Shown here: positions 3,783 to 39,032 of the stretch, one piece after another
Numbering within the stretch: position 1 is the stretch's first letter
Layout of the letters: every line of letters begins with the position of its first letter
Virus record (IMG/VR): IMGVR_UViG_3300044833_000094
Location: 1-44,776 of that record
Direction: 5' to 3' (one strand)
Length of the DNA stretch: 44,776 bases
DNA from: a virus
Position numbers and translations under genes: made by a program
The notes under the pieces: model-generated
Database searches by the model: none
Told to the model about the DNA's origin: nothing
Seen by the model: the letters and a program-made list of their open reading frames with translations, nothing else

Positions 3783-4135
3783 AGACAGTCCTTCGGAAGC
3801 ACCAGGCGAAAGGCCGATATCTCCGGCAATTGGCCCTTCTTGAGCTCTTGCCCCTTCTTCATATCGAAGGTGACCGGAGACCCGTTGTGCAGTCCGATAT
3901 GCACATGCGGTCCAGGAGCCTCAAATACCTCCATAGGAGCAACCAGCCAGTGCTCTGGAAAGCGCTGCGGCTTGACCATGCAGAATTTCAAGGACCGCAG
4001 GGCTAACTTGACGTGTCCGGGCTCGTTCTCAAATCCGCCTTCAATCCAGTCCTTGTAATCGATCACGCGGATCAGTCCACGGTCGATCATTTGCTGACGG
4101 ATTGGTGTTCGGATAATTGGGGGTTGCGTGGTCAC
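3779..4135 (-). CDS. Hypothetical phage protein, 118 aa
   Basis: MTTQPPIIRTPIRQQMIDRG... (GTG start, GGAGACGTC upstream). A compact alpha/beta-looking protein with VKLALRSLKFCMVKPQRFPEHW and GPHVHIGLHNGSPVTFDM. It lies between the PD-(D/E)XK nuclease and the coiled-coil gene, with 4-nt overlaps on both sides, so it likely belongs to the recombination cassette. No family recognised. Confidence 0.6.
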   Translation of the reverse strand: MTTQPPIIRTPIRQQMIDRGLIRVIDYKDWIEGGFENEPGHVKLALRSLKFCMVKPQRFPEHWLVAPMEVFEAPGPHVHIGLHNGSPVTFDMKKGQELKKGQLPEISAFRLVLPKDCL

Positions 4136-5220
4136 GACGTCTCCGTAATTTCAAATTCGGTACGTTGTTCAACTTCGGCGATATCGTCCATCGCCTGGTC
4201 AAGAATGGCTCTCTTCTTCGCCTTCAGCTTCGAGGCCAATGCGGACCGGCTGACATGGAGATCAGCTATCAGGTCGTCCGGCTTTCCTTCTGCGGCAGTG
4301 ACTTCCCTCCAGTTATTCAGCAGCACCAGAGCGGGGCCGAGGGGGTACTGCCTCGTTTCCTTGAGCACAAACCCACCCTTGAGCGTCTTGCCATCCTTGC
4401 CGGGTGCCTGGATATCTCCGTGCATCGCCAGTTCTTTCAGGACCAGGTCATTGGCTCTGGCAGCCTGTTTGAGGTACTGCTGCCAAGCCAGTCGCTCTGA
4501 TGGGTTCATCTCCATCGGGTTGCGGCCTTCAATCGGGCACTCCCGCATCCTGAGCAAGGGACAGTGAATGCACTGCGAACCTGGAATAGCCTGCGACTCG
4601 TAGACGTGAGGATTGTCGTGGATCTCCAACTGCCGCTTGCGCGAAGCGTCAACTAACTCCATGAGGCGAGGCATGTCCTCACGTGTATAGGCTGCTGTGC
4701 GCACGCATCCATAGCGGGTAAAGGCGAGGGTGAACTCCACCCGCTTGGCGTCGGGATAGCAGAGAAAGACCAGTACCGGGTAAAGCTTGGATTGAAACGT
4801 TGTCGCATCGATGATGCGGTGGTAGTTCTTGTAATCGATGATGCGGTAGTTGCCAGAGCCTTCATTCAGGATGACGTCCGGCGTTCCCTCTAGATCATCC
4901 CCGCCGGTGAGGTGCTTTTCAAGATCAGCGATGTGGCGGAAGTTGAGCGTGAAGTTATCGAGGAAGTGGCGGGCAATTTCCTGAGCTTCATGGCTGGCGC
5001 AAGTCATCAAATGCTCAAGGTGGATCTGATCCGTAACGTCTGACTTCTCACGCCAGTTATGGGAGGCCCAGTTGAACAGCAGCGCGTGCACTTCGTTGCC
5101 CAGCGAGGAATCTTCGTTATCCGGTGACTTGTAGTCGTAGACCTCGGAGTAGACGTAACTCGCAGGACACGCCAAGCGTTCATGCCTGGATTGGGAGAGA
5201 GGCGGGGCGGTTGAGATCAT
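4132..5220 (-). CDS. PD-(D/E)XK nuclease, Cas4/RecB-like with probable Fe-S cluster
   Basis: 362 residues with RecB-nuclease motifs in order: GNEVH (41-45, the conserved His), GTPDV (112-116, metal-binding Asp115), IIDYKN (127-132, D-x-K type) and QSKLY (143-147). Four cysteines, C18 near the N-terminus and C217/C220/C228 (CIHCPLLRMREC), match the split arrangement that ligates a 4Fe-4S cluster in Cas4 and AddB. It likely resects DNA ends to feed the adjacent ERF annealing protein, as lambda Exo does for Beta. No other CRISPR gene is present, so a phage recombination role is favoured. The start overlaps the ERF stop (ATGA). Confidence 0.8.
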   Translation of the reverse strand: MISTAPPLSQSRHERLACPASYVYSEVYDYKSPDNEDSSLGNEVHALLFNWASHNWREKSDVTDQIHLEHLMTCASHEAQEIARHFLDNFTLNFRHIADLEKHLTGGDDLEGTPDVILNEGSGNYRIIDYKNYHRIIDATTFQSKLYPVLVFLCYPDAKRVEFTLAFTRYGCVRTAAYTREDMPRLMELVDASRKRQLEIHDNPHVYESQAIPGSQCIHCPLLRMRECPIEGRNPMEMNPSERLAWQQYLKQAARANDLVLKELAMHGDIQAPGKDGKTLKGGFVLKETRQYPLGPALVLLNNWREVTAAEGKPDDLIADLHVSRSALASKLKAKKRAILDQAMDDIAEVEQRTEFEITETS

Positions 5221-6017
5221 GCCCGCCGCCCTTCATTTTTGCCGCCAGCCCATTCAATGAATACGTCGTACTGGTCGCGGGGTATCTCGAAAGCCTTCTC
5301 CACGCCGATAGACTTCAGTGCTGCATTGATCTGGTCCCACGACTTGCTATTGGCCTTGGCGATGGCTATGAAACGCTTACCCTGAGCCTCATTGATCCGT
5401 GGACCCGAAGCAGGTTTCACCGAGGGAACGTCTGTAGCTTCCTGCGCGGCCTGCTTCCTTTCGCGGCTATGAACTGCAGCCGGATGCTCAACTAGGTTTC
5501 CTTCTTCATCAAAGAGCGGAACCTCGTCGTCGTCCCCCGGCTCACGCATGGGAACGGGTGCAGGTGACGGCCGGAATGACGGCAGGGGAGCCTTGACTGC
5601 CTGCGGCCCCGCATGACCCGAGGCTACGTTGCCATCGTCATCCTCTGGTGCTATCCCAAGGATGCCGAGATAGGAATACCGGCGAGCGTAGGTGATAGCC
5701 GATCCGACTGTTTGCGCATCGAAGCGGTTCGTATTCCCTGCCGGCATCTCCAGCGAATCCTGGATCCATTCACCCGAGGAGTGCAGTAGGCGGGTCACGA
5801 CCGTAGCTGACTGCGTAGCCACACATCCTTGAGGCGTCTGGATTACCAGCAGGCCATGCTTGCGCAGCGGCTCTTCGGTGGCAGAGATGGCGGCCTGAAG
5901 GTCCGCATACTTGGACTTGAAGTGAGGGTTGGTCTTGTCCTTCAGCACGCCGGTAAATTCGGCCTGCGCTAGCAGAAGGGAAGCAGCGAGGTTCTTTATG
6001 GAATCAGAGGTTTGCAT
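5217..6017 (-). CDS. erf: ERF-family single-strand annealing protein
   Basis: 266 residues. The N-terminal ~140 show the ERF pattern: NLAASLLLAQAEFTGVLKDKTNPHFKSKYADLQ (read in parts), LRKHGLLVIQTP, VVTRLLHSSGEWIQD and TVGSAITYARRYSYLGILGI, ending in EDDDG. A disordered, acidic Pro-rich linker leads to a C-terminal helical domain. ERF proteins form rings that anneal single strands for phage recombination and circularisation. Start chosen at 6017 because GGAGG lies 6 nt upstream; an upstream extension adds only an unlikely 17 residues. Coupled to the nuclease downstream. Confidence 0.88.
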   Translation of the reverse strand: MQTSDSIKNLAASLLLAQAEFTGVLKDKTNPHFKSKYADLQAAISATEEPLRKHGLLVIQTPQGCVATQSATVVTRLLHSSGEWIQDSLEMPAGNTNRFDAQTVGSAITYARRYSYLGILGIAPEDDDGNVASGHAGPQAVKAPLPSFRPSPAPVPMREPGDDDEVPLFDEEGNLVEHPAAVHSRERKQAAQEATDVPSVKPASGPRINEAQGKRFIAIAKANSKSWDQINAALKSIGVEKAFEIPRDQYDVFIEWAGGKNEGRRA

Positions 6018-6121
6018 CAGCGGCCTCCATGATGAGCACAGAGAATGAGTAATCCAACGAAGGCACATCCAAGAAACAAGGCGGATAGCATGATCTCTGT
6101 CCAGTTCGTTCGCTCAGACAC
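6017..6121 (-). CDS. 34-aa membrane microprotein upstream of erf
   Basis: A GTG-initiated reading frame (MSERTNWTEIML...) of 34 residues with one hydrophobic helix (LSALFLGCAFVGLLILC). GGAGAG lies 10 nt upstream. The start overlaps the preceding stop by 8 nt and its own stop overlaps the erf ATG (TGATG). An internal ATG at 6091 would give 24 residues. Function unknown; coupling on both sides argues it is translated. Confidence 0.5.
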   Translation of the reverse strand: MSERTNWTEIMLSALFLGCAFVGLLILCAHHGGR

Positions 6122-25439: not shown

Positions 25440-26204
25440 ATGTCCGGCCTAGGGTCGCAGGCGTCCACCTTTACCTGGTCGCGCATATTCGAGATGGCGC
25501 GCGTGACGGGAGATAAGCGCGGGCAGTTCGGTAACGCGGACGTGGATATCGTCCAGATGATCTCCACGGCGATGTACCGCTTCTTCCCGTGGAGGTTCAC
25601 CCTGGTCAATACACCGGTGACCACGCCTGCGACTATCCCGATGGTCGATGGGGTACAGGACTATGCGGCGCCTACCGATCTATATCGGCTGACCCGTGGA
25701 GCGGTATGGCAGACCGACATCACGCCGAATCAGAACATTGACTATGACGTAGTGAAGACACAGACGGTAAGCCTGAATCCGAGGAGCTACAGCAATATCC
25801 AGTCCATCTCGTATGAACCGGACCTGAAGATGATCCGGCTCGAGTCTGCTATTTCGGCTCCGGCTCCATCGATATTCGAAATGAGATTGCAGTATCAACC
25901 GTTTCTTGACCCGGTGCTGAGCCTGGATCAGGTGCCGTGGTTCCCTGATGAGTATGTGCAGGTGGCTCATGACGGGATTCTCTACAAGCTCTGGGGTCTG
26001 GATGAAGATCCGCGAGCCGGAACGGTCTCTTACTCGACGGATGGGCTGATGTCCTACAGCGGGCAGCTCGCCGTGTTTATGGGCGGGATGAAGGCTATGG
26101 CGATGGATGAGGATGCGGGAGCGATCGACACCATGTTTCCTGCGGACCCGATTGGCATTTGGAATACAAATCAGGGATACAGCTATGTCTGGGGTGCCTT
26201 TTGA
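25440..26204 (+). CDS. Head-tail connector / tail tubular A-like protein, 254 aa
   Basis: Residues ~10-90 (IVQMISTAMYRFFPWRFTLV, GVQDYAAPTDLYRLTRG) and ~150-200 (PDEYVQVAHDGILYKLWGLD) follow the layout of gp4/tail-tubular-A-type adaptors of short-tailed phages. Those proteins sit under the portal. Position between head and tail genes agrees. The stop overlaps the start of the tail-fibre gene. Confidence 0.62.
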   Translation: MSGLGSQASTFTWSRIFEMARVTGDKRGQFGNADVDIVQMISTAMYRFFPWRFTLVNTPVTTPATIPMVDGVQDYAAPTDLYRLTRGAVWQTDITPNQNIDYDVVKTQTVSLNPRSYSNIQSISYEPDLKMIRLESAISAPAPSIFEMRLQYQPFLDPVLSLDQVPWFPDEYVQVAHDGILYKLWGLDEDPRAGTVSYSTDGLMSYSGQLAVFMGGMKAMAMDEDAGAIDTMFPADPIGIWNTNQGYSYVWGAF

Positions 26205-27364
26205 GGCATTGGCTGCTGGGCTGTCTCTTGGCGTGCTCTGCTGCTGGCTACGCGCAAAATTCTACCGTTACCGTAAACCTAAAGCAGCTCGGTGGCGGCG
26301 CGTCCCAACCTACCGGGGCGAGCGTGCGGGTGGATCTGCAGAACTGCGGAAGCCCAAGAGTCCCTGGCACTGGGAACATTGGTGAGAAGTCACGGACCTT
26401 CTTCCCGACCACTGGCGGAGTGGTTACGGTCACGCTCTATAGCAACTCGATTCTCGATTGCGGCCAGGGCGTTTTAATCAACCCGCTGAGCTTCTACACC
26501 TTCAACCTGGTATCTAACGGCCAGGTGACCTCCCTCGGAAGCTACAAGGTGCCCTCGGGATCATCGACGCTGGACACGCTGACACCGATCAACTCAGTAC
26601 CGATCGTCAACACTCCTACCGGGGATAGCACGTATCTGCGACTGGATCTGGGCAACTGGGGCAACCTGGTGCAGCCGGTTCCGTCCTTGAGTTCAACGGG
26701 GAGAATCAACAGCAATACTGGCTATCAGTTGAACAGTGCAGCGCCGAATAATCACGTCCTCTGCGGCAACGGCACCAACTATGTGGACGCAACAACCTGC
26801 GGCGTCAATACTGGGGTGACGAGCTTCAACACGCGGACCGGGGGAGTGACGCTGACCAGTGGAGACGTCACCACGGCTCTCGGATTCACACCGCCTTCGA
26901 TAACAGGTACGGGCGCCACCGGAACGTGGAATATCAGCATCACTGGCAATGCCGCTACAGCAACTACGGCAACGACAGCCACGGCTCTCGCAGGAACTCC
27001 GACGCAATGCTCTTCCGGCTACGCCACGGGTATAGCAGCGAATGGCAATGCCAACTGCGCGGGATCATCCTCAATCATTGAGAGCTTCAATGTGGCTGGC
27101 TGCTCTGCCCCCGCTAGTACAGACAGTCAGTGCAATGGAACTATCACGCTCGCGACCGCGATGCCGGATACAAATTACACGCCCACGCTGACGGTCAATG
27201 CGACAGGCTTCCTTCCCGTTGGAGGTGGTGGGCCTGGACCGTACTTATCTATTCAGGTGGCTGGTGCTTTAACCACGACCACGATTCCCTACAACATATC
27301 GTGCACTTTCGGGTGCGGTATCAGCACCGCGGCGACTATCTATGTGCTTGCGAAGCACAACTGA
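26201..27364 (+). CDS. Tail-fibre-like protein with predicted signal peptide
   Basis: Start taken as TTG 26201, overlapping the previous stop (TTGA); a TTG at 26159 only adds residues upstream. The N-terminus RHWLLGCLLACSAAGYAQ|NST has the basic n-region, hydrophobic core and A-x-A-like end of a Sec signal. The mature part has tail-fibre hallmarks: GVTSFNTRTGGVTLTSGDVT, ALGFTPPSI and a WNISITGNAATATTATTAT repeat. Several Cys (NCG, DCG, TQC, NCA, GCS) could form disulfides after export. A fibre with a cleavable-looking leader is unexpected. Confidence 0.68.
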   Translation: MRHWLLGCLLACSAAGYAQNSTVTVNLKQLGGGASQPTGASVRVDLQNCGSPRVPGTGNIGEKSRTFFPTTGGVVTVTLYSNSILDCGQGVLINPLSFYTFNLVSNGQVTSLGSYKVPSGSSTLDTLTPINSVPIVNTPTGDSTYLRLDLGNWGNLVQPVPSLSSTGRINSNTGYQLNSAAPNNHVLCGNGTNYVDATTCGVNTGVTSFNTRTGGVTLTSGDVTTALGFTPPSITGTGATGTWNISITGNAATATTATTATALAGTPTQCSSGYATGIAANGNANCAGSSSIIESFNVAGCSAPASTDSQCNGTITLATAMPDTNYTPTLTVNATGFLPVGGGGPGPYLSIQVAGALTTTTIPYNISCTFGCGISTAATIYVLAKHN

Positions 27365-27372
27365 GGAGCCTT

Positions 27373-27531
27373 ATGCCGATCGTTGACATGCTTTACCTTC
27401 GCTGTGGCCACCACAGGGACGTGCACGAGAAAGATTCGGATAAGTTGATCAAGTGCCCCGACGACCGATACAGGGGTGGAATCCTGAAGAAGTGCGACGA
27501 CTGCGCAGGTAACACTGAGGAATCCCGATAG
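27373..27531 (+). CDS. Cys/His microprotein, 52 aa
   Basis: MPIVDMLYLRCGHHRDVHEK... with CGHH, KCPD and CDDC: four Cys and several His in 45 residues, consistent with one zinc site. TGAGGAG upstream. Ends directly before the tail gene at 27532. Function unknown. Confidence 0.58.
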   Translation: MPIVDMLYLRCGHHRDVHEKDSDKLIKCPDDRYRGGILKKCDDCAGNTEESR

Positions 27532-29835
27532 ATGGGCACACGCCAACTGCAGTACTCGGGCATCGATCGACCGATCCTTCCGTACAAGTCGTATACCTCG
27601 GTGATCGATACCTCTGCCCACTTTGTGCCGGGAAGTCAGAATGCTCTGATCCTGTCCGATGGAATGCTCAGAAAGCGCCCGGGATTCAACTTCCGCCTTC
27701 TCCGCAGTGCGGTATCCAATGGGACGATCAAGCGGATTAAGACGTGGGAGAGGTGGGATGGAACCTTCTTCCTCATCCAGTCGACGACAGACGGTACTAA
27801 CAGCTACGTCTTCAAAACAAAATGGGGCACGGATCTTGATCCCGTCCTGATCCATACCAGCGCAGGCAATCCGCAGCCATTCGACTTCGTTGTCAGCCGC
27901 AACCTGCTCTTCTTCGGTAACGGCGTGGAGATGTTGAAGTATGACGGAACCACGGTCACCAAATGGGGGACTAACCCTCCAGCGTCGGCGCCCACGTTGG
28001 CCTTCACCGGTGCCACCGGAGCTACCGCGTTTTCCACGCTCGGGGCAGTCGTCGCCAGCATCATTGTTACGAATGCCGGATCCGGCTATGTCTCTGCCCC
28101 TACCGTTACGCTCACTGGGGGCGGCGGCTCTGGCGCTACAGCGAGTGCTAGCCTATCTGGCTCATCGATCACGATCACGCTGACGGCTCCGGGATCAGGA
28201 TATGTCTCTCCTCCGACCGTTGTGATTGGAGCTCCTCCTGTAGGCGGAACACAGGCCGCAGCTACAGCAACGCTCGCACCTTCCGGTGTCGCTACCGTGA
28301 CCGTCACGAACGGCGGGTCCGGCTACAACCCGGCCAGCCCTCCGCTGATTACCTTCTCCGGCGGTGGCGGGGCAGGAGCTTCAGCAACGGCTGTCGTCTC
28401 AGGTACGGCAGTGACCAGCATCACCATCACCAGCCCTGGCACTGGATATACTTCGGCGCCAACGGTGCAGATCAATGGCGGAGGTATCTCGGCCTTCACC
28501 GGGTATTTCTATGGATATACCTACGTGACGCAGTATGGGCATGAGTCGAACATGAGTCCGCTCAGCCTGTCATCGGGGATCTTCACCGGGCAAATCGTAA
28601 CCACAAGCTATGTGGCTTCGACTGACGCGCAGGTGAATGGGATCAACATTTACCGCACAACGGATGGAGGAAGTCAGGCGCCAGACGTGATGCAACTGGT
28701 AAATGCTTCGCCTCTGGCGAATACCAGCGGGACGTACAGCGATGACATCGCAGACATCAATCTGCAATTGCAGGTTGGGCCGGCACTGCTGAGAAACAGC
28801 CCGCCGACTCCCTGTATGGGATTCGTCTTCTGGAACAACCGCATCTGGGGCTTTGCTGGTGGAACAACATACTTCTCTGGTGCGGAAGAGATTGCCAACG
28901 GGGTAGCGGAAGAGGCTTGGCCGGCAGGACAGGATGGAAACTTCGACCAATGGCCCGAGCGGGTAATGGGATTAGGAGAGACGCCCAATCAACTCGGCAT
29001 CGGACTTACCTCGCAGTTCTGGCAGAAGACCGGAGACACGCTCGATACCTTTCGCACCGGACTCCTATTGAAGCAGCGCGGCGTGCGGGGCATCACGGCA
29101 ATCCAGTCGATTGGCAGCGACGTGGTATGGCAGGATCGATCGCGCCAACTGTGGACGGGAAGCGGCGGGGAAATCGGCATCCCCATTCGCCCTGACCTGG
29201 CAACGGTCGATCCAACGCAGTCGTATGTCGGGATGCATGTGCAGGACAGCTTCAACTGGATTTATTGCTTCGACCCTGCAAATACAAAACTCTATCTATT
29301 CGACCTGGATATGGATGTGTGGAACGTCCCCTGGACTGTCCAGAATGCATGCTGCATCGCTTCCGGAGAGCTTACTCCTGGAGTGGTCCAGCTCTTCATG
29401 GGCTTCACTGATGGGTTTATCTGTGCCATGAATGCCGATGCTCCCGGGTATCTGGACGATAACCAGCAGTACTCGGAGCAGTTGGTCACCAACCTAACCT
29501 CCTGTTCGACCGGTGCGGATGCGACCAACCGCAACCGGCAGGAAGTGGGAACGCCCAAGCAGACAGAGTTCGAGACGGGCCCGAGGCTGCTGGATTCCAT
29601 CTCTCTGCTGATCGATGAAGATCCGACCTACGTCAACGCCAACTGGAGAGATCAGCTTGCCGGATCGACAGACCCTTCCTATCAGGTTCCTGGAACGGCT
29701 CTGGTGAAGAAGGTTTATCGAGCGACGCGCGATATGCAATCTGCCAACCGGGCGGCGATGAAGTTTGGATTCAATGCAAGCCAGACACCGTGGACAGTGT
29801 TTTCCATGGCTCTGGCTTGGCAGGTGGACATATGA
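27532..29835 (+). CDS. Tail hub/stabiliser (P22 gp10-like) with inserted GSGY repeats
   Basis: 767 residues. The framework (FVPGSQNALILSDGMLRKRP, FFLIQSTTDGTNSY, WNNRIWGFAGGTTYFSGAEE, LTSQFWQKTGDTLDTFRTGL, a C-terminal RAAMKFGFNASQTPW) resembles the beta-propeller-like hub proteins of short-tailed phages. Residues ~173-320 interrupt it with four copies of a ~40-residue Gly/Thr/Ala beta repeat marked by G(S/T)GY (183, 221, 262, 303) and (S)xPTV. A following FnIII-like part contains YGYTYVTQYGHESNMSP. The insertion is probably a surface domain. Confidence 0.7.
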   Translation: MGTRQLQYSGIDRPILPYKSYTSVIDTSAHFVPGSQNALILSDGMLRKRPGFNFRLLRSAVSNGTIKRIKTWERWDGTFFLIQSTTDGTNSYVFKTKWGTDLDPVLIHTSAGNPQPFDFVVSRNLLFFGNGVEMLKYDGTTVTKWGTNPPASAPTLAFTGATGATAFSTLGAVVASIIVTNAGSGYVSAPTVTLTGGGGSGATASASLSGSSITITLTAPGSGYVSPPTVVIGAPPVGGTQAAATATLAPSGVATVTVTNGGSGYNPASPPLITFSGGGGAGASATAVVSGTAVTSITITSPGTGYTSAPTVQINGGGISAFTGYFYGYTYVTQYGHESNMSPLSLSSGIFTGQIVTTSYVASTDAQVNGINIYRTTDGGSQAPDVMQLVNASPLANTSGTYSDDIADINLQLQVGPALLRNSPPTPCMGFVFWNNRIWGFAGGTTYFSGAEEIANGVAEEAWPAGQDGNFDQWPERVMGLGETPNQLGIGLTSQFWQKTGDTLDTFRTGLLLKQRGVRGITAIQSIGSDVVWQDRSRQLWTGSGGEIGIPIRPDLATVDPTQSYVGMHVQDSFNWIYCFDPANTKLYLFDLDMDVWNVPWTVQNACCIASGELTPGVVQLFMGFTDGFICAMNADAPGYLDDNQQYSEQLVTNLTSCSTGADATNRNRQEVGTPKQTEFETGPRLLDSISLLIDEDPTYVNANWRDQLAGSTDPSYQVPGTALVKKVYRATRDMQSANRAAMKFGFNASQTPWTVFSMALAWQVDI

Positions 29836-30476
29836 ACCTGAGCGCGTGGGCAGTAAGCAACAGCGACGTGACGAGCAGACTACGCAGGCTTGAGGGGTCG
29901 TATCCGAAGCAAAAGAGCGCCACGCCGGTATTTTCCAAGTCGAAGTTCGTGCTTCCCTCGAGTACGGCCGTGACCCCTACCGGGCAGATCAATCCTCTCT
30001 CTGCAGTTCAGGCGAAAGGCAATCTGTCTCCCTTCGTGCTCTCTGGATCGTTGGGCTTTATCGCCTCTTCGACCAGCATCACGGTGTTCTGGGATGGGAC
30101 CAACTCGAGTGTGCCGATTGTCGTCAAGCGGGCGGATAAGACGAGTTTCACAGTGCCCAAGGGTGCACAGACGATCGGAAATTTACAACCGGGGACGCAG
30201 TACCTCTTCTCCGTCTACTGGAACGTGAACAACACCAGCGGCCTGAGCTTCGGCCCTGGGGATGTTGGAAGTCCTCGCATTGCGGTCAGTCCAGGGGCTT
30301 CGCAGGCGACGACCAATGCTGCGTTGCAGGCGCAGCAGACCTACAACGCAGAGCCTATCTATGCGGGATTGGTGGCGTTCAGCACCACTGCATCGGGTCA
30401 GTCGTCCGGAGCAGGAAAGACACCATCCGGCATTCCATTCTCGCCGGTTCGGGTGCGGGGGTTCAACGCGCAATGA
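29832..30476 (+). CDS. Putative minor tail/virion protein, 214 aa
   Basis: ATG overlaps the previous stop (ATGA). An N-terminal helical part (DVTSRLRRLEGSYPKQK) leads to an FnIII-like beta domain (SSTSITVFWDGTNSSVPIVV, NLQPGTQYLFSVYWNVNNTS) and a Gln/Ala-rich tail. Likely an accessory of the tail hub. No family recognised. Confidence 0.58.
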   Translation: MNLSAWAVSNSDVTSRLRRLEGSYPKQKSATPVFSKSKFVLPSSTAVTPTGQINPLSAVQAKGNLSPFVLSGSLGFIASSTSITVFWDGTNSSVPIVVKRADKTSFTVPKGAQTIGNLQPGTQYLFSVYWNVNNTSGLSFGPGDVGSPRIAVSPGASQATTNAALQAQQTYNAEPIYAGLVAFSTTASGQSSGAGKTPSGIPFSPVRVRGFNAQ

Positions 30477-30898
30477 GACGCCGCTGCTCCATCCGCAAGA
30501 TCAAACCCAACCTGAGTGAGCCGCAGCTTTTCCTGGAATGGATTGCGGCGAATCGGGAGAAGAACGACCTGGACGAAGCGATGCTGTCCTATCCGTCTAC
30601 TGAAGTGCTGGTGGCTGATGGGAAGGACGGCCGCTATCCCCACGTCATGATGCCGGTGCATCCGGTGTTCGTGATGGACTCACTCGCTCCCAATCCAGCA
30701 GCAACTGCGGGGCAGATTGCACTCGCTCTGCGAAAGATGACGGACATTGTGGAGTGGGAGAGCCGAAAGCTTGGCTATGGAGAGATTTGGTTTGTCGCTT
30801 CGGAGCCATCGATCGCCAGGTTTGCCGAGGAGCAGGACAGCTTCGTAGAAGTGAAATCGCGAGTCTTCAAGATGAAAATTGATGAGGGGGTGATCTAG
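30473..30898 (+). CDS. GNAT-fold-like protein in the tail operon, 141 aa
   Basis: PQLFLEWIAANREKND and ALRKMTDIVEWESRKLGYGE, followed by IWFVASEPSIARFAEEQDSF and VFKMKI, give the order of strands and helices of an acyl-CoA N-acyltransferase, though a clear acetyl-CoA loop is not seen. It may acetylate or only use the fold structurally. ATGA overlap with the preceding gene. Confidence 0.45.
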   Translation: MRRRCSIRKIKPNLSEPQLFLEWIAANREKNDLDEAMLSYPSTEVLVADGKDGRYPHVMMPVHPVFVMDSLAPNPAATAGQIALALRKMTDIVEWESRKLGYGEIWFVASEPSIARFAEEQDSFVEVKSRVFKMKIDEGVI

Positions 30899-31650
30899 TG
30901 GGCGGTCCGGGTGCAGGAACAGCAAAGAATCAACTCAACTCGCAGAATGATCTGCAGAATCAGGCGTTCACTTCCCAGATGGGCACGCTGAATGACCTCA
31001 AGGGCCATCTATCTGGATATCTCTCCGGCAATCAGGGATTCACGCCACAACAGATGGCGACGATGAACAGCCAGGCGATCAATCAGAACGCGCAGAAGTA
31101 CAACCAGGCTGGTACTTCAGTGCGAAATGCTCTGAACGCCCGCGGGATCAACGGCAGCCAGACGCCGGGCGGTGGAGCGACGGCAGGAACTTTGGCTGGG
31201 CTCTACGGTGCCAAGGCCTCGGACCTGTCGAACTCGCTGAACACGGTCCAACTGCAAAACTCGCAGCAGGCACTGAACAATCAGTTCAATGCGTCTTCTA
31301 TCCTGTCGGGCAATGCTCAGACCTTGGGTGGGAGTGTCGGGACATTCGGGCAGGGCGCCAACAACGCGCTGAGCCAGTATGTGCAGGCGTCCAACAACGG
31401 GTTCATGGGTAACTTCTCTCGCGGACTTGGAATGGGCCTCGGCGGCGCAGCGGGTGCGGGCCTTACCGGAGGACTGGGATCTGCGCTGAGCGGGCTGAGT
31501 GGCGCGATGGGTGGCGTCGGCTCCTTTGCTTCGCTGAATGGAAATGGCGCAGCCAGTATGCTCCCCGGCTCCTTCTCTGGCGGAGCCCCATCCTTCAGTG
31601 GCATCAACGCCCCGGGCATGAGTGCCGGCGGCGGAAGCATGGGATGGTGA
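30898..31650 (+). CDS. Internal virion/ejection protein, Gly/Asn/Gln-rich, 250 aa
   Basis: GTG start in the preceding stop. The N-terminal half is a low-complexity Gln/Asn-rich helix (NQLNSQNDLQNQAFTSQMGT). The C-terminal half is Gly/Ala/Ser-rich with hydrophobic glycine-zipper-like runs (GLGMGLGGAAGAGLTGGLGS), as in membrane-active ejection proteins of P22/T7-type phages. Likely travels in the capsid and enters the host with DNA. Confidence 0.62.
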   Translation: MGGPGAGTAKNQLNSQNDLQNQAFTSQMGTLNDLKGHLSGYLSGNQGFTPQQMATMNSQAINQNAQKYNQAGTSVRNALNARGINGSQTPGGGATAGTLAGLYGAKASDLSNSLNTVQLQNSQQALNNQFNASSILSGNAQTLGGSVGTFGQGANNALSQYVQASNNGFMGNFSRGLGMGLGGAAGAGLTGGLGSALSGLSGAMGGVGSFASLNGNGAASMLPGSFSGGAPSFSGINAPGMSAGGGSMGW

Positions 31651-31651
31651 T

Positions 31652-32980
31652 ATGGCGACTCCGAACGTAGGCCCTCCGCAGACCGATCCGTCACAAGTCA
31701 GCCAGATCCAGCAGCATCTGCAGCAGATCGCGCAGACTCCTCCGCAACCGGTGCCGCAGGCGGGACCGGATCAGGGCAGCCCTGTTCGCCGATTCCTGAC
31801 TAACTTCTTTTATGGAGCAGGCCAGGGCTTATTGCAGCATGTCGGCCTTCCGACCGATTATGACAAGCAGCAGAATGTCATCGCGCAGAACCAACGGCAG
31901 CAGCAAATCTCGCAGTCTGCGGCAGAGACCTCCAGCCTCATCGGCTTGCACCAGCAGCAGCTTGCGAACGAGAAGCAGTCTTACGCTCAGAACCAGTATG
32001 AGAACGAGCAGCTACCTATCCCGGGCGAGGTAGCCGAGCACTTCCCCGGGCAGACGACAGCGCGGCGCAAAGACATCAACACGATGCTGCAGGTTGGGTC
32101 GGCGCTGAATCAGAAGCAGCCGATTGACCTTGATGACAATATTGCCGACATCATGAGGCTGCCGCGGGGCACGCAGGTAGATCCCCGCTTGGTCAAGACG
32201 CTGACGACCGCTGCAGGGATGAGCCCCAGTGCATGGCAGATCAAGGATGCGAACGGCTATCAGCAGCAGGAGAACAAGATCACGGGTGAAGTCCGCCCCG
32301 TTCTGGATAAGAATGGCCAGCCGATGCGTTCGAATAACATGCTGACTCCGTGGGTACGCGCGAAGGCAAATGCTGCGAACACGCCGTTTCCGGGAATGGA
32401 CGCTGCGGGTAATCCGACGACCATTTCGAATGCGCAGGCGCTTGCTACCGGTGCCCCGAAGATGCCGGAAGGCCAGACGATGACGCTCCAAGGTGATCGG
32501 ATCGGAGCCCAGACGTATCTGTCCGCCAATAAGAACGTCGAAGATAATCTGGCGGTTCTTCGCGATCCGACGCAGCACGCCATCATTGCCAGAACGATGG
32601 ATGCGATGGAGAAGGAACCCGGTGCTGCCGGCCAGTTGATCAACTCTGCCTTGCAGTCCGGACTTTCCCCAGAAGGCGCTAAGTTGATCGGCGGCCTCAA
32701 GCAGATGAACGAATTTGGCTCGTCCTTCAAGAAGTACACCGGCAACGGCGGGGCCGCCACAGACGCGCTCCGGGCAACGATTCACGGAAACCAGCCTAAC
32801 GCAGCGAATAGCGAGGCGGTAAACCGTCAACTCCTGCAACAGGATCGTGCGCTGGCAGGCCAGGTTCAGCAGATGCTCAGTCGGCCTGGTGCCTATGCGC
32901 CGCCTGCACGGAATGCTGCTCCTCCGGCTCCAAGCCAGTCAGGCAGTGACCCATTCGCGCAGTTCAAGAGGAATCGATGA
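31652..32980 (+). CDS. Internal virion/ejection protein, 442 aa
   Basis: Start at 31652 (the frame could open at 31622 but would overlap the stop). Pro/Gln-rich beginning, a Gln-rich coiled-coil stretch (QQQISQSAAETSSLIGLHQQ) and long helical parts (NVEDNLAVLRDPTQHAIIAR). This composition and the place between two similar genes match podovirus ejection proteins that form a trans-envelope conduit. Function inferred. Confidence 0.6.
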   Translation: MATPNVGPPQTDPSQVSQIQQHLQQIAQTPPQPVPQAGPDQGSPVRRFLTNFFYGAGQGLLQHVGLPTDYDKQQNVIAQNQRQQQISQSAAETSSLIGLHQQQLANEKQSYAQNQYENEQLPIPGEVAEHFPGQTTARRKDINTMLQVGSALNQKQPIDLDDNIADIMRLPRGTQVDPRLVKTLTTAAGMSPSAWQIKDANGYQQQENKITGEVRPVLDKNGQPMRSNNMLTPWVRAKANAANTPFPGMDAAGNPTTISNAQALATGAPKMPEGQTMTLQGDRIGAQTYLSANKNVEDNLAVLRDPTQHAIIARTMDAMEKEPGAAGQLINSALQSGLSPEGAKLIGGLKQMNEFGSSFKKYTGNGGAATDALRATIHGNQPNAANSEAVNRQLLQQDRALAGQVQQMLSRPGAYAPPARNAAPPAPSQSGSDPFAQFKRNR

Positions 32981-34518
32981 GCACGCCGGCAACAATCCCG
33001 ATGATCAACGGCACCGGGGAAGCATATGACATTCCCATGGAGAACATGCCCGACGCGCTAAAGTCCGGCCTGCAGCTCGCTGTGGACATGAAGCATGCCG
33101 GGACGGGTGAGCGATACACGATTCCCAACGGAAGGTATAAAGAGGCGCTGGCCAGCGGCATGGTACCGGATCATGCGCCGAGCGGCCCTCCGGTACCAGA
33201 GGGCATGCAGCAGACGCCGAGCGCCGCGTCTCGCTTCCTCTATGCGGCCGGAGCTAACCTACCATCGCCGAGTGGCCTGCTGGACATGATGCGCAATATG
33301 TCCTATGGCAACCCCACGGGCTTAGGCAAGAGCGGCGGCGTGGTCCAAGGGTTCGCCAACGATGCTGCGACACATCCGGCAGTTCAGCTTGCCACCTCTC
33401 CACATCTCGCGGCTGATGCGGGTAGTCAAGTGGCGGGGCTAGGCGGCTTCAACACCCACTCGATCGCGTCCGACTACCGAAACAGTGATTACGCTGGGAT
33501 GGCTGGCGATGTGCTCAGCCCTGCAGCTCAATTGCTCGCCTCGATGAAGCTAGGTGCGCGCGGAGAGCAAGGTGCCACGCCTGCGGGGGATGCGCTGCGC
33601 AGCACCGGCGAAAACATGATGAACAAATTCGTCCTGAAGGCAAAGGCCAAGAACCTTCAGTTCGGCGCAAACCCTGCTGAGGGGGTGTTGGAGAATACTT
33701 CGGGGATGGCCTTCACTAAACAGGGACTGGCCGACAAGATCGATGATGCACTCTACAACCAAGTCGGCCCGCAAATCGGTGATGCCTACAAGAGCGCCGA
33801 TGCGCGCGGCGAGACGATCTCCCCAGATGAACTGCGCAATGGGACTGCCCACGTGTTCGAGGGAGCGAAGAAAGCAGCCTCCGCGCTTGGTGGGAGCGAT
33901 GATCTCGTCAACCAGGTCAATAGTCAGCAGCAGAGATTGATGGACCTCGCCACCCAGGGACATCTGACGCCCTCCCAGCTATGGGAGCAGAAGATGATGC
34001 TCGATAAGAACACGAACTGGCGCAACCCTTCGGATGCCAACATCAACGAAGTGAAGCAGCTCCTGTCATCTTCGCTGGGGGACATTCTGGACAAGAAGGC
34101 GCCGGAAGTCATAGAGCCGAACCGCAGCTACCAGAACCTGAAGCAGGCGAGCAAACTTCAGAATGCCAACGCAGAGAAAAGCCCATCGATCTTCGGGACT
34201 CTGGTAAAAGCGGCTAGTAGCGCGGAGTTGAGACATTTGCTTGCAGGAGATGGCGCTGCGGCTACGCTGGTTGGGGCAACGGCCATTCCTCTTGCCACAT
34301 CCACGCCATTCTTAAGCGGCGCGTCCTCTGCGCTCTACCATTCCGGGGCGTTGGCGGACCGAGCGCTGCCAGCGGCGTACGGAGCGGCCATACGCAATGC
34401 TCTGACCAATGCACCAAATAAGGGTGCCGCCGAAAACAGCCAGAAAGAACAGGATGGTAGTCAAGGTGTGCGCTCCGTGCTGAGTAGAATGCTACCCCTT
34501 AGCGCCACTGGACGGTAG
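32977..34518 (+). CDS. Internal virion/ejection protein, 513 aa
   Basis: ATGA overlap with the previous gene. An N-terminal short beta domain (GEAYDIPMENMPDALKSGLQ) is followed by long helices (KAASALGGSDDLVNQVNSQQ, QRLMDLATQGHLTPSQLWEQ) and a hydrophobic C-terminal part (GDGAAATLVGATAIPLATST). Largest of the three-gene ejection set. No single family recognised. Confidence 0.6.
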   Translation: MSTPATIPMINGTGEAYDIPMENMPDALKSGLQLAVDMKHAGTGERYTIPNGRYKEALASGMVPDHAPSGPPVPEGMQQTPSAASRFLYAAGANLPSPSGLLDMMRNMSYGNPTGLGKSGGVVQGFANDAATHPAVQLATSPHLAADAGSQVAGLGGFNTHSIASDYRNSDYAGMAGDVLSPAAQLLASMKLGARGEQGATPAGDALRSTGENMMNKFVLKAKAKNLQFGANPAEGVLENTSGMAFTKQGLADKIDDALYNQVGPQIGDAYKSADARGETISPDELRNGTAHVFEGAKKAASALGGSDDLVNQVNSQQQRLMDLATQGHLTPSQLWEQKMMLDKNTNWRNPSDANINEVKQLLSSSLGDILDKKAPEVIEPNRSYQNLKQASKLQNANAEKSPSIFGTLVKAASSAELRHLLAGDGAAATLVGATAIPLATSTPFLSGASSALYHSGALADRALPAAYGAAIRNALTNAPNKGAAENSQKEQDGSQGVRSVLSRMLPLSATGR

Positions 34519-34530
34519 ATTACCTAAGTT

Positions 34531-34899
34531 CTATCTCCAACTGTCTATATCGGCGAGGACCGATCTGGCGCACTGGTCCACTACGTTTACGCCGCACACT
34601 TTGATGTGGTGGAGTATGTAATCGCTCGATGCGCTTCCAGCCACTATGCTCAGCGCGGAATGCTGCTGACCATATCTCTCAGCGCCGTCATCATCAGGAT
34701 CTATCGAAATCACGGTGACCCAAAGATTTCCCCTATCCGCTTGCCTGTACCTCGGGCTGGTCGCTAGGGCATCTCGAAATGCAGCTCCGAATAGCGAGCC
34801 TACCGTGTCTTGACATTGGCAGGTGAACCTTATCGGTCGGCGCACATTCTGCCCATATGCCGCGAGCGACAGCAGTAGCAGAACGGAAACGAATCTCAT
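34531..34899 (-). CDS. Solitary leftward 'moron': secreted protein, 122 aa
   Basis: Start at 34899: MRFVSVLLLLSLAAYGQ|N, a clear Sec signal peptide with Arg, a hydrophobic core and A-x-G end. The mature ~105 residues contain four Cys (TCQCQDT, VCGVNVVDQC), so two disulfides are likely, and a compact alpha/beta pattern (LWVTVISIDPDDDG, ALSIVAGSASSDYILHH). It is the only minus-strand gene inside the rightward late block. Such morons are often expressed from the prophage and change the host surface or block superinfection. That role is inference. Confidence 0.62.
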   Translation of the reverse strand: MRFVSVLLLLSLAAYGQNVRRPIRFTCQCQDTVGSLFGAAFRDALATSPRYRQADRGNLWVTVISIDPDDDGAERYGQQHSALSIVAGSASSDYILHHIKVCGVNVVDQCARSVLADIDSWR

Positions 34900-34988
34900 T
34901 TCATCACTGTGACGCACCGCCAGTCTTAAGCTGAATCCCCCAAAGCGGGGAGTGATGCACCCATTTCACGTACTTACCCGGAGAGACA

Positions 34989-37900
34989 ATGAAGATTCTG
35001 CTGGCTGGCCTATTGGCTGGCCTTTTTACGTTGGGCGCACAAGGCCAGATCAATCAGCCGGGCGGTGGTGGCAGCGTCAACAACGGAGGAAACGGCAACG
35101 GGAATGTATCGATCACTCCAGACCAGTTTGCCGTGGGCAGGAATGACGGCACGGTCGTCGGTCTTGCCGACATGGGCGTGTCGTGCTCAGGCTCTCCGCA
35201 AGTCTGTACCGTCGCGTGGCAGGAAGATCCCAGCCGCGGCTTCTTCGACCCACGCCGTCCGCGGACAGAGAAGATCGACGGCAATAACACGGTCGTCACT
35301 CTGGCCAGCAATTCCCCGCTGGCTTTGCAGCAGACCATGAATGACGCGAGCTGCTGGGCACAGAATCACCATCAGGAGTCCACGACCTTTATCCCGCCGG
35401 GCCAATGGCACACGGGATCTGCGAATCAACTGACGCTGACGGTGGGGCCGGGCGTGCACGTGCTCGGCGTCCCGGGGGGCACCGCAGGGCTCGGCGGCGG
35501 CCTTGGATCCTCTTCTCCGGTCGGCGGAACTACCTTTGTCGGAACGTATAACAACGTCTATATCTTTCAGGCGATCTCCCCTTATACTTCGGCCTGCTCT
35601 GACGGAACGACCGTCACCGACACGATGGATGGCGGCGATATCGAGAACATCCAGGCATACGGCTGCGGACAGGGTGGGTGCTCGAATGCTCCCGGCGATT
35701 CACACAGCTACGTCAATGCTGGACCGCAGCAGGGCGGCATCCTGGTTGCCCTAGGCCATGCCACAGGAAAGAATCTGCGCGCAGCGTACACCGGAAGCAT
35801 CGGCGTCAATGCAAGCGGGCAGGACTCTGAATTCTGGGATCTGCACTCTTATAGCGGGCTGATGTGGTACCGCACGGACCGCGGCCAACTGTCGATCCCT
35901 GCCCCGACAACGCCCTCCGTCTCCCCATCCACGACAGGTGGAACTCTGGCGGCCGGGACCTACTTCTATAAGGTAACGGCGCGGACAGATGTGGCAGGGC
36001 TGACGGGCGAGACGACTGCAGCACCCGAGGTGAGTGCGACCACGACTGGCACGACGAGCAGCGTTGGGCTCAGTTGGCCAGCAGTAACGGGAGCAAGCGG
36101 ATACCGAGTCTACCGGGGAACCTCAGCGGGCGCCGAGACCGGGTATCTCGTGACCGCGACCAACAGCCTGACCGACACCGGGGCTTCTCTCACAACGGCC
36201 ACGGTGCCGACTACCAACACCTCGGGGACCTACTTCCCCAGCACGGACGGGCTCCACGGCGGAGTGGAGTGGAACACCGCGGACGGACGGTATCACAATA
36301 CGGAAACCTATGGCAGCTTCATCGTGCCGGGAAGCCAAGGAACCGGGGCTAGCGAACTGGGCCACGTGTGCGGCGTGGTGATGGGCGGCGGCACCAACAC
36401 CGCGGATAATGTGTTCGAGCAGATCGACGAGATGGGCATCTGCCATCCCACCGAATCAGGGAACGCGCGCATCTCGCACTTTCGCGCTGAAGGTAATGCG
36501 CTCCACAGCTTCTTGAATAGCGATGGAGCCCTGCTTGCCGATCAGGGCGTGATCTCTCAGGGCTGCACCAACCAGGCGTCTGTCACCGCGAATGGATTTT
36601 GTGATGACCTGGTCGACAATTCAGCGGGCGGCGGCCAGTACTCCAACATCAACATCTATGACAACCCCACCCTTGGAACGAGCTTTCGAACCGGGTTCAT
36701 GACACCGACCGGGGCAGGAGTACGTTGTTCCAACGTGAACGTCTGCGATGGAACTGGTTTTGACCGCACCGCCGCGGGCGCCGGGACAGATGAGATTGGC
36801 AGAAATTCTTGGGTAACCGATCAATGGAAGGCGATTCTATCCGCAGATGCAGATAGATCGCCGTTTGAGGTGCTGGGCACAGTAGTGAGCGGTACCAGCC
36901 CGAACATCGCTGGTAACAATTATTTCTATTTCACCAATGGCTCACCGACGTCAATCTCAGGAGTGACCAATCCGATCGTCGGTCAGCCTATCCATGTCTC
37001 GCTCGACCACAACACCACGCTGGTCAGCATGGCGAACGGCGGGGCGTGGGAAACCTGCAACGGGCAGAACATTGTCGGACCGGCAGGCGTGCTGACATTT
37101 TATGTGATGGATTACGGCATCCACCATCGCCTAAAGGAGCAGTGCGATCCGCTGCCGGCAAGCCTGGTCACGAACGCGGCGGATAAGTCCAGCACCAGCA
37201 CGCAGGCGTTCGCCGGCCCGATCAGTGCGCCACAGTTCGGAAGTGTCTTCTATGCGGATGGCTTTCCGGCATCCTGCACCGTAGGCGGGACGGGCTACAC
37301 GACCCAGTACGACTGCGCGCTGCAAACTGCCTTCGCCTCAGCAGTCGCCAACAATTCTCTCGCGACGCTATATCTAGGAAACCACGGCTATGCGACCAAT
37401 GTCCCGCTTGTCTGCACCAACATCCACCAGTGTGTTTCGATCATCGGGCCTGGTATGGGATTCGGCCAGCAAGCGAATGACATGACATCGATCACCGCCC
37501 TTACTGCGATGGGCGTGATGATCTCCGTTCCAGCAGCGGCCTCGGGTCAGCTAGGGAACTGGACCCTCAGAGGGTTCACGTTAGACGGGAACAACCTTGC
37601 GCAAGCAGGCATCGAAGCGAACGCAGTGAAGGTAAGCAGAATAGAGCACATCGGCCTGAAGAACTTCACCAGCACGGATCACTGGATACAGGTAGGCGTG
37701 CCGACTTGCTCTGTCAATTGTAACTTTCAAATGAGCGTGAACGATGTATTCCTGATTGGCGCGGGATCAGCCCCGGCTAACTGGGGGACTGCCACAGCGG
37801 TCATAACGGGCGGAGTGCCGGTTGTCACCCTCGTTACAGGCGGCTCCTATGTTTACGCCAACCCCGCAGTCTACTTAAATGGCAACGGAGCAGGAACCAA

Positions 37901-39032
37901 ATTTCCCTGCACCACGATGGGCACAATTACCCCGATCGCTTCGGGTACCGGACCCTTTACGCTGACCGGCTTTACTGTCGCGGGGTTCGCGGGTTGCTCC
38001 GGTACGGTTTATGTCGTCATCCCCGATCTAGCTCCGGCGGCCTACGGGTTCGCCAGCGGGACGACCGATTCAGAGTTTGAGCGCGTTGTCGTGCAGGGAG
38101 TAGGGCGAACGGCGGCCATCAACGCCGGAACTGCTAACTCGGCGAAGTGGGATGCGCCCCACTACTACTCGGGCCAACCCATCGGAATCCTCGATTCCGG
38201 CAAGGATTCGTTCTACGACATCAACATGGATTCGGGCGGCGGGTATGGGTTCGACTGCGAAGGCACGTGTCGGGTATTCGGCGCGAAAAGCTTCTGGAAC
38301 GCTAGCTACGGCGGCGCTGAGGACTTCTATGTCAGCCCGTCCGCGAATCTCACAGTCATGGGACACTCTTGCGCTAATGCACAGAGCGCTGGCGGGTATT
38401 CGCAGTTTGTGAACGTCAGCGGGCCGATGTCGGTTCGTAACTCGGCTAACTTCTTCTTCAACCTGGGAACGTTCGGGGCGTACGACTGCGACGGTTCTGG
38501 GCACTCTGATTATTCGATCCCCACCGGCATCTATCCTCAGTCAATCAACACGACGGCGAACGGGGTCAATCAGCTCGGCAACGGAACAGCATCCGATAGT
38601 CTCTGGCAATATGCGACCCGCGTCTTCACAGGCTGGCGCAACGTGGACTCCAACCTGCTCTTGCAGACCAACAATTCTGGCGGCGTCGGGTTCTACGCTA
38701 GCAACACGCTTGGGTCTGGGCTGTTCGCAGGATTCGCACCCACGAGCCATCTCTCCTATCAGGCTATTGGGACCGCCATCGCATCCGCAACCACGATTGC
38801 ACCAACAGGCTCCGGCATCTTCCACGTAACCGGCACTACGCCGATTGTTACGATCACGCCGCCATTCGGCTGCACGACGACGGGATTCGGCTGCACCGTC
38901 ACGCTGATCCCTGATGGGCTGTGGACTACGACCAACGCGGGCAACATTGCCATTGCTACAACGGCTGTGGTGAGTAAGCAGTTGGTTATGACCTACGACC
39001 CCGCAGCAGTCAAGTGGTACCCGAGCTACTAA
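34989..39032 (+). CDS. Tailspike (beta-helix) with predicted signal peptide, 1347 aa
   Basis: MKILLAGLLAGLFTLGAQG|Q is a textbook Sec signal followed by a Gly/Asn-rich linker. Residues ~50-300 look like the first beta-helix (TVVTLASNSPLALQQTMNDA, then TFIPPGQWHTGSANQLTLTV). An FnIII domain lies at ~305-416 (GTYFYKVTARTDVAGLTGET, VSLSWPAV-like GLSWPAVTGASGYRVYRG). A second long beta-helix (~430-1250) and a short C-terminal domain follow. Many Cys are present. It probably binds and degrades host surface polysaccharide. GGAGAG ribosome site at 34980-34985. Confidence 0.78.
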   Translation: MKILLAGLLAGLFTLGAQGQINQPGGGGSVNNGGNGNGNVSITPDQFAVGRNDGTVVGLADMGVSCSGSPQVCTVAWQEDPSRGFFDPRRPRTEKIDGNNTVVTLASNSPLALQQTMNDASCWAQNHHQESTTFIPPGQWHTGSANQLTLTVGPGVHVLGVPGGTAGLGGGLGSSSPVGGTTFVGTYNNVYIFQAISPYTSACSDGTTVTDTMDGGDIENIQAYGCGQGGCSNAPGDSHSYVNAGPQQGGILVALGHATGKNLRAAYTGSIGVNASGQDSEFWDLHSYSGLMWYRTDRGQLSIPAPTTPSVSPSTTGGTLAAGTYFYKVTARTDVAGLTGETTAAPEVSATTTGTTSSVGLSWPAVTGASGYRVYRGTSAGAETGYLVTATNSLTDTGASLTTATVPTTNTSGTYFPSTDGLHGGVEWNTADGRYHNTETYGSFIVPGSQGTGASELGHVCGVVMGGGTNTADNVFEQIDEMGICHPTESGNARISHFRAEGNALHSFLNSDGALLADQGVISQGCTNQASVTANGFCDDLVDNSAGGGQYSNINIYDNPTLGTSFRTGFMTPTGAGVRCSNVNVCDGTGFDRTAAGAGTDEIGRNSWVTDQWKAILSADADRSPFEVLGTVVSGTSPNIAGNNYFYFTNGSPTSISGVTNPIVGQPIHVSLDHNTTLVSMANGGAWETCNGQNIVGPAGVLTFYVMDYGIHHRLKEQCDPLPASLVTNAADKSSTSTQAFAGPISAPQFGSVFYADGFPASCTVGGTGYTTQYDCALQTAFASAVANNSLATLYLGNHGYATNVPLVCTNIHQCVSIIGPGMGFGQQANDMTSITALTAMGVMISVPAAASGQLGNWTLRGFTLDGNNLAQAGIEANAVKVSRIEHIGLKNFTSTDHWIQVGVPTCSVNCNFQMSVNDVFLIGAGSAPANWGTATAVITGGVPVVTLVTGGSYVYANPAVYLNGNGAGTKFPCTTMGTITPIASGTGPFTLTGFTVAGFAGCSGTVYVVIPDLAPAAYGFASGTTDSEFERVVVQGVGRTAAINAGTANSAKWDAPHYYSGQPIGILDSGKDSFYDINMDSGGGYGFDCEGTCRVFGAKSFWNASYGGAEDFYVSPSANLTVMGHSCANAQSAGGYSQFVNVSGPMSVRNSANFFFNLGTFGAYDCDGSGHSDYSIPTGIYPQSINTTANGVNQLGNGTASDSLWQYATRVFTGWRNVDSNLLLQTNNSGGVGFYASNTLGSGLFAGFAPTSHLSYQAIGTAIASATTIAPTGSGIFHVTGTTPIVTITPPFGCTTTGFGCTVTLIPDGLWTTTNAGNIAIATTAVVSKQLVMTYDPAAVKWYPSY

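Follow-up and report, generated by a model that had tools for sequence, protein, structure and literature searches.

Tailed bacteriophages are taken to assemble wholly in the cytoplasm. Completed particles of P22 and T7 can still acquire the tailspike and the fibre, respectively, at a late stage, in vitro as well, but both proteins are produced in the cytoplasm and without a leader. Phage lambda encodes a leader-bearing protein, Lom, near its tail genes, but this is a small outer-membrane protein and not a fibre. We know of no two-compartment assembly route for any tailed phage. The stretch of DNA analysed here (the window) is the entire 44,776-base IMG/VR virus record IMGVR_UViG_3300044833_000094, an SU10-like podovirus with its genes in the order terminase (15957), SU10-type portal (17910), capsid (22010), adaptor (25440) and large tail protein (27532). 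Its portal and adaptor belong to the same families as those of the SU10-type (Kuravirus) podoviruses; SU10 itself differs in having no leader-bearing open reading frame (ORF) of at least 300 amino acids (aa), while the window has two, a fibre-like gene (26201-27364) and a spike-like gene (34989-39032). A sequence-only reading had proposed that both products bear Sec-type leaders followed by Cys-bearing beta domains, and the leaders and cysteines stand: each N-terminus passes our rule for a Sec leader with a signal peptidase I (SPase-I) site, and 10 Cys were counted in the fibre and 28 in the spike. The explanation that we favour, with a probability of roughly 0.52, is that fibre and spike pass through Sec, form their disulfide bonds once outside the cytoplasm, and are added to particles during lysis or soon afterwards.

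The leader rule is home-made, and calls for a basic n-region, an uncharged eight-residue core with a mean Kyte-Doolittle value of at least 2, and small residues at positions -3 and -1. When residues 2-40 were shuffled and rescored, the observed score was reached by 0.9% of shuffles for the fibre and 0.12% for the spike; and among the 12 window ORFs of at least 300 aa exactly these two pass. Across nine control phages from other hosts (T7, SU10, P22, lambda, T4, crAss001, phi14:2, AD45-P1 and HTVC106P) only one of 202 ORFs of this size does so, a membrane-like protein of crAss001, versus 11 of 135 in the Tunturiibacter phages Tunturi 1, 4 and 5 (p = 3e-4). MW202554, a phage from a groundwater metagenome whose terminase is the best match of the window terminase, was taken at first as a control and then excluded, since it has a leader-bearing 846-aa 'glycoprotein repeat' gene beside the portal, at 27039-29579. 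The same record has, at 25674-26465 (L156), a lectin-like gene whose leader is evident although the rule did not detect it.

The sequence-only reading correctly judged the leaders to be genuine and surprising, but its scope of two genes was too narrow, because the trait recurs in three morphotypes infecting Tunturiibacter. The cultured Acidobacteriota phages compared were Tunturi_1 to 5, five phages of which four are independent (records PP887698, PP885685, PP885687 and PP885688 for Tunturi_1/2, 4 and 5). Leaders are present on gp12, gp13, gp14, gp16 and gp17 of the podovirus Tunturi_1, on gp113 and gp114 of the siphovirus Tunturi_4, and on gp337-gp342 of the jumbo myovirus Tunturi_5, so that Tunturi_1/2, Tunturi_4 and Tunturi_5 have two to six leader-bearing tail-module genes each; the labels given to several of them on deposition include tail fibre, tail spike, tail and virion structural protein. 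Tunturi_2 repeats Tunturi_1, and its gp17 leader, where the sequence differs, remains a leader. These genes resemble those of the window in being large, Cys-rich, leader-bearing and part of the tail module, here in phages of acidobacterial hosts, but beyond this general character their sequences are unlike the window proteins. Tunturi_1 gp12 comes after the 'tail protein' gp11 and Tunturi_5 gp337 after the 'tail protein' gp336, an order comparable with that of the window fibre behind its adaptor. The main text of the paper describing the Tunturi phages is silent on signal peptides and on mass spectrometry (PMC11924767). The possibility that the host forces export was rejected, given that Tunturi_3 has no leader in its tail genes though it shares its host strain with Tunturi_1. 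A phylum-wide trait was likewise rejected: among 297 Acidobacteriota genomes six places with an SU10-type portal were found, distant prophages with Cys-rich leader-bearing fibres in none of the stretches read. Further runs of adjacent leader-bearing genes occur in unassigned IMG/VR contigs, four genes in G001 and seven in G002; G001 has terminase and connector matches, and the other contigs are taken as phage from their inclusion in IMG/VR.

In the window, Tunturi_1 and Tunturi_4, the leader-bearing proteins have 2.16% Cys in their mature parts, against 0.46% in the remaining structural proteins encoded by the window and by Tunturi_1, 3 and 4 (p = 2e-35). An even number of Cys was found in 36 of the 43 leader-bearing proteins that have at least two (from a set of 46), compared with 202 of 332 leaderless ORFs, and in 29 of 35 after removal of homologous copies. 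Such an even and high count is expected of exported disulfide proteins. It does not merely mirror the secreted proteins of the host, an idea rejected because leader-bearing proteins encoded in 400 kb of Tunturiibacter X5P2 contain 0.58% Cys. Gln is the commonest +1 residue, in 24 of 46 phage leaders and, under the same rule, whose score slightly favours Gln, in 17 of 53 host leaders. In the positional runs nearly every gene has an SPase-I site, often A/Q (the slash marks the predicted cut) like the host secretome. From the leaders, the A/Q sites, and the content and parity of Cys, we strongly infer that the leader proteins of the window and of the Tunturi phages are exported and cleaved.

The nature of the exported proteins is clearest in Tunturi_5, where gp337 and gp341, 61% identical over their first 103 mature residues, begin directly behind the leader with PNLxLxxPxxxExxWGPLxxxDLxxLD, the N-terminus of leaderless tail fibres. 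The match starts from residue 7 in the Salado fibre, from residue 4 in HTVC027P gp69 and from residue 2 in Tunturi_4 gp112, and Tunturi_1 gp13 has a weaker form of the motif. In a profile comparison, residues 4-38 of the gp337 N-terminus aligned on residues 4-38 at 97% probability, a figure that partly reflects selection, the comparison set having been chosen from weak BLAST matches (E 0.8-3). A profile search with the gp337/gp341 N-terminus returned no further relatives. The likeness is to ordinary fibres with the motif PNLGL..P..GE..WG...N.N...LD, such as those of Klebsiella phage Salado and Pelagibacter phage HTVC027P, and the difference lies in the leader and the cysteines: 52 IMG/VR loci are related to the gp337 N-terminal region, and in the 50 with a readable start the rule detects no leader and Cys is low. 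Because these relatives are leaderless and low in Cys, it appears that an ordinary fibre type gained a leader and cysteines.

In the window, the fibre-like gene reads M(TTG)RHWLLGCLLACSAAGYA/QNSTV, and this TTG start shares bases with the TGA that ends the adaptor gene; use of another in-frame TTG, further upstream at 26159, would merely extend the leader. The spike-like gene reads MKILLAGLLAGLFTLGA/QG/QINQ, with predicted cleavage after LGA or after AQG. A dual start yielding a leaderless form was considered and rejected, as no internal start past the leader in either gene has a convincing ribosome site. The fibre has the shaft motifs FNTRTGGVTL, LGFTP and GNAATAT, and a Cys module, TPTQCSxGxATGIAANGNANC, which recurs in IMG/VR genes; where the start of these is present nearly all are leader-bearing (in L076 the leader is evident though missed by the rule, and in L072 the start is uncertain). 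In contig G003, positions 39507-49700 (around L077) encode one fibre-like protein of 3397 aa that has a leader, 48 Cys and recurring GNAATAT motifs. PHROG and Pfam searches assigned no fibre family to the window fibre or spike, and single-sequence AlphaFold gave no usable model (mean pLDDT 32 for the fibre and 30 for the 643 C-terminal residues of the spike). Residues about 317-432 of the spike show a weak match to an Ig/fn3-like domain found in major tail proteins of Arthrobacter phages. The identification of the gene at 26201 as a probable tail fibre is supported, and that of the gene at 34989 as a putative spike, from its size, position and beta/Ig-like content, is weaker. With the leader-bearing genes set aside, no evident large receptor-binding protein remains in the window or in Tunturi_1.

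Under the favoured explanation, fibre and spike, as receptor-binding parts of the tail, would each be synthesised with a Sec leader, exported via Sec and trimmed by SPase I. They would then fold with disulfide bonds in the periplasm or outside the cell. Particles built in the cytoplasm would receive them on their tails once the inner membrane gives way during lysis, or shortly afterwards. Several unrelated Tunturiibacter phages would use the same device, often across a whole run of fibre genes. Late joining would be feasible, since P22 and T7 particles can take up their spikes and fibres late, and in this scheme joining to the virion would occur outside the cytoplasm. Among the options listed in the sequence-only reading, export followed by joining outside or at lysis is the best supported, by the Tunturi_5 fibre N-termini behind leaders, the disulfide-like mature parts and the tail-module position. 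More tentatively, podo-, sipho- and myoviruses of Terriglobia may have moved the maturation of their receptor-binding proteins outside the cytoplasm, by Sec export and disulfide formation, with addition to the particle only at lysis. Several points weigh against the favoured explanation. Cytoplasmic particles would have to meet fibres that lie across a membrane; export, cleavage and presence in the virion are predictions from sequence; the fibre identity of the window spike draws on nothing beyond the features already named; the 97% match of gp337 is inflated by the selection described above; and some members are similar to proteins that the host secretes and might work apart from the virion.

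The last point leads to the main alternative, which we consider less likely: that the infected cell secretes non-virion proteins (depolymerases, lectins or receptor blockers) built from fibre-like modules, which would loosen host polysaccharide, aid the spread of progeny or block re-adsorption. The hosts of the Tunturi phages do produce extracellular polysaccharide (PMC11924767), which suits such a role, and a spike module of Tunturi_1 gp17 and Tunturi_4 gp114 is found also in chromosomal, multi-copy genes for secreted proteins or lipoproteins of Acidobacteriaceae, X5P2 included, at up to 61% identity. In the one host locus examined, genes for a glycosyltransferase and a sugar epimerase are among those nearby. 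A tree of the module (28 rows) calls for three or more phage/host switches. The leader stands directly before the module in Tunturi_4, L033 and L034, and before an added beta-helix domain in Tunturi_1, so it would have been kept or regained every time. The Cys-rich module is common to Tunturi_1 gp17, Tunturi_4 gp114, viral contigs and the secreted He_PIG/beta-helix proteins of Acidobacteriaceae; the latter differ in being chromosomal and in having long Ig-repeat stalks or lipoprotein leaders. Tandem copies of such large secreted or lipoprotein He_PIG/beta-helix proteins, relatives of phage spikes, were seen in Acidobacteriaceae (L056-L066), and are candidates for both source and target of the exchange. 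The beta-helix of gp17 and the GDSL esterase and LamG domains of gp342 would suit either explanation. Set against secretion as free proteins are the Tunturi_5 proteins in which a true tail-fibre N-terminus follows the leader, the shaft motifs of the window fibre, the location of the genes inside tail operons, and the lack of another candidate receptor-binding protein in the window and Tunturi_1. The proposal in the sequence-only reading that the proteins are surface or secreted factors of the infected cell stays the chief competitor, and ranks below export with late joining. As a separate observation, gp342 of Tunturi_5 (L055, 24889-28449), a leader-bearing 'tail fibre', combines LamG with a GDSL lipase/esterase domain.

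An uncleaved leader might instead act as a hydrophobic plug or anchor, keeping the fibre in the virion or aiding its entry into the host membrane; hydrophobic stretches as short as these could be accommodated in a tail. This retained anchor, also among the options raised earlier, is improbable: SPase-I sites (often A/Q) are present in nearly all members of the positional runs, with Gln the commonest +1 residue as in host leaders, the exported-type Cys pattern points to an oxidising place, and in Tunturi_5 the fibre N-terminus starts after the predicted cut. It is likewise improbable that these are captured host surface genes, kept in a prophage for lysogenic conversion or superinfection exclusion. 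One module has indeed been exchanged between phage and host, and lambda Lom was flagged by our leader scan; but the genes lie in tail operons and overlap their neighbours, which fits late expression, and in the window proteins an Ig-like domain is all that has relatives in hosts. The gp17/gp114 module was not seen in the window. Host gene capture, as earlier proposed, holds for this one spike module in Tunturi_1, Tunturi_4 and contigs, and nothing seen here extends it to the window's own proteins. Finally, that the N-termini are hydrophobic by chance or the start codons wrong is scarcely credible, for although the predictor is our own, 8-10% of shuffles pass at some level and the window fibre starts at TTG, few shuffles reach the observed scores and the trait recurs in three other cultured lineages against a single ORF in the controls.

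No earlier description of leader-bearing tail fibres was found in the literature covered, which left out bioRxiv and most subscription papers. Absence of signal peptides has been cited as support for a phage origin of binding proteins (PMC6199706). If true, Sec-exported fibre arrays in several cultured phages would break the rule of cytoplasm-only assembly, would explain the mis-sorting of true phage receptor-binding proteins as surface proteins of the host, and would open to test the way in which a virion meets its parts across a membrane, with phages and hosts both in culture.

Table 1. Coordinates of the leader-bearing genes and of related features in the window
Feature	Positions	Strand	Basis
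Predicted Sec signal peptide of fibre-like protein, MRHWLLGCLLACSAAGYA, 18 aa, TTG start	26201..26254	+	sequence, own rule, shuffle 0.9%
Mature fibre-like protein, 369 aa, 10 Cys	26255..27364	+	sequence, Cys count
Tail-fibre shaft stretch, residues 199-272, like leaderless fibres of other viral contigs	26795..27016	+	alignment
Cys module ATALAGTPTQCSSGYATGIAANGNANC, common to leader-bearing fibre genes of other contigs	26966..27061	+	sequence matches
Predicted Sec signal peptide of spike-like protein, MKILLAGLLAGLFTLGA(QG), 17 or 19 aa, ATG start, GGAGA ahead	34989..35045	+	sequence, own rule, shuffle 0.12%
Mature spike-like protein, about 1330 aa, 28 Cys	35046..39032	+	sequence, Cys count
SU10-type portal, indicates phage type	17910..20021	+	PF23899, 107 bits
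SU10-type adaptor (tail) gene, directly upstream of fibre gene, with 4-base overlap	25440..26204	+	PF24175, 28.0 bits vs cut-off 27
Large tail protein, nozzle position, downstream of fibre gene	27532..29835	+	PHROG structural matches; position
Small 122-aa gene with own leader MRFVSVLLLLSLAAYG/QN, between internal virion genes and spike	34531..34899	-	sequence

The best match of the window portal among phage records is that of Tunturi_3, at 21% identity, which makes an acidobacterial host plausible for the window phage. IMG/VR contains no close relatives of the window spike, nozzle protein or portal, and the small leader-bearing gene ahead of the spike has no relative in the phage collection. 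In the SU10-type-portal prophage of one Acidobacteriota genome (G029; L188, 14402-16491) two low-Cys leader-bearing genes adjoin a probable capsid gene. Residues about 150-320 of the nozzle-position protein contain glycine-rich repeats (GSGYVSAPTVTLTGGGGSGATA) with matches in many unrelated structural PHROGs. On the minus strand of the window, at 4132-6068, a PD-(D/E)XK nuclease gene adjoins one for an ERF annealing protein, a phage recombination pair.

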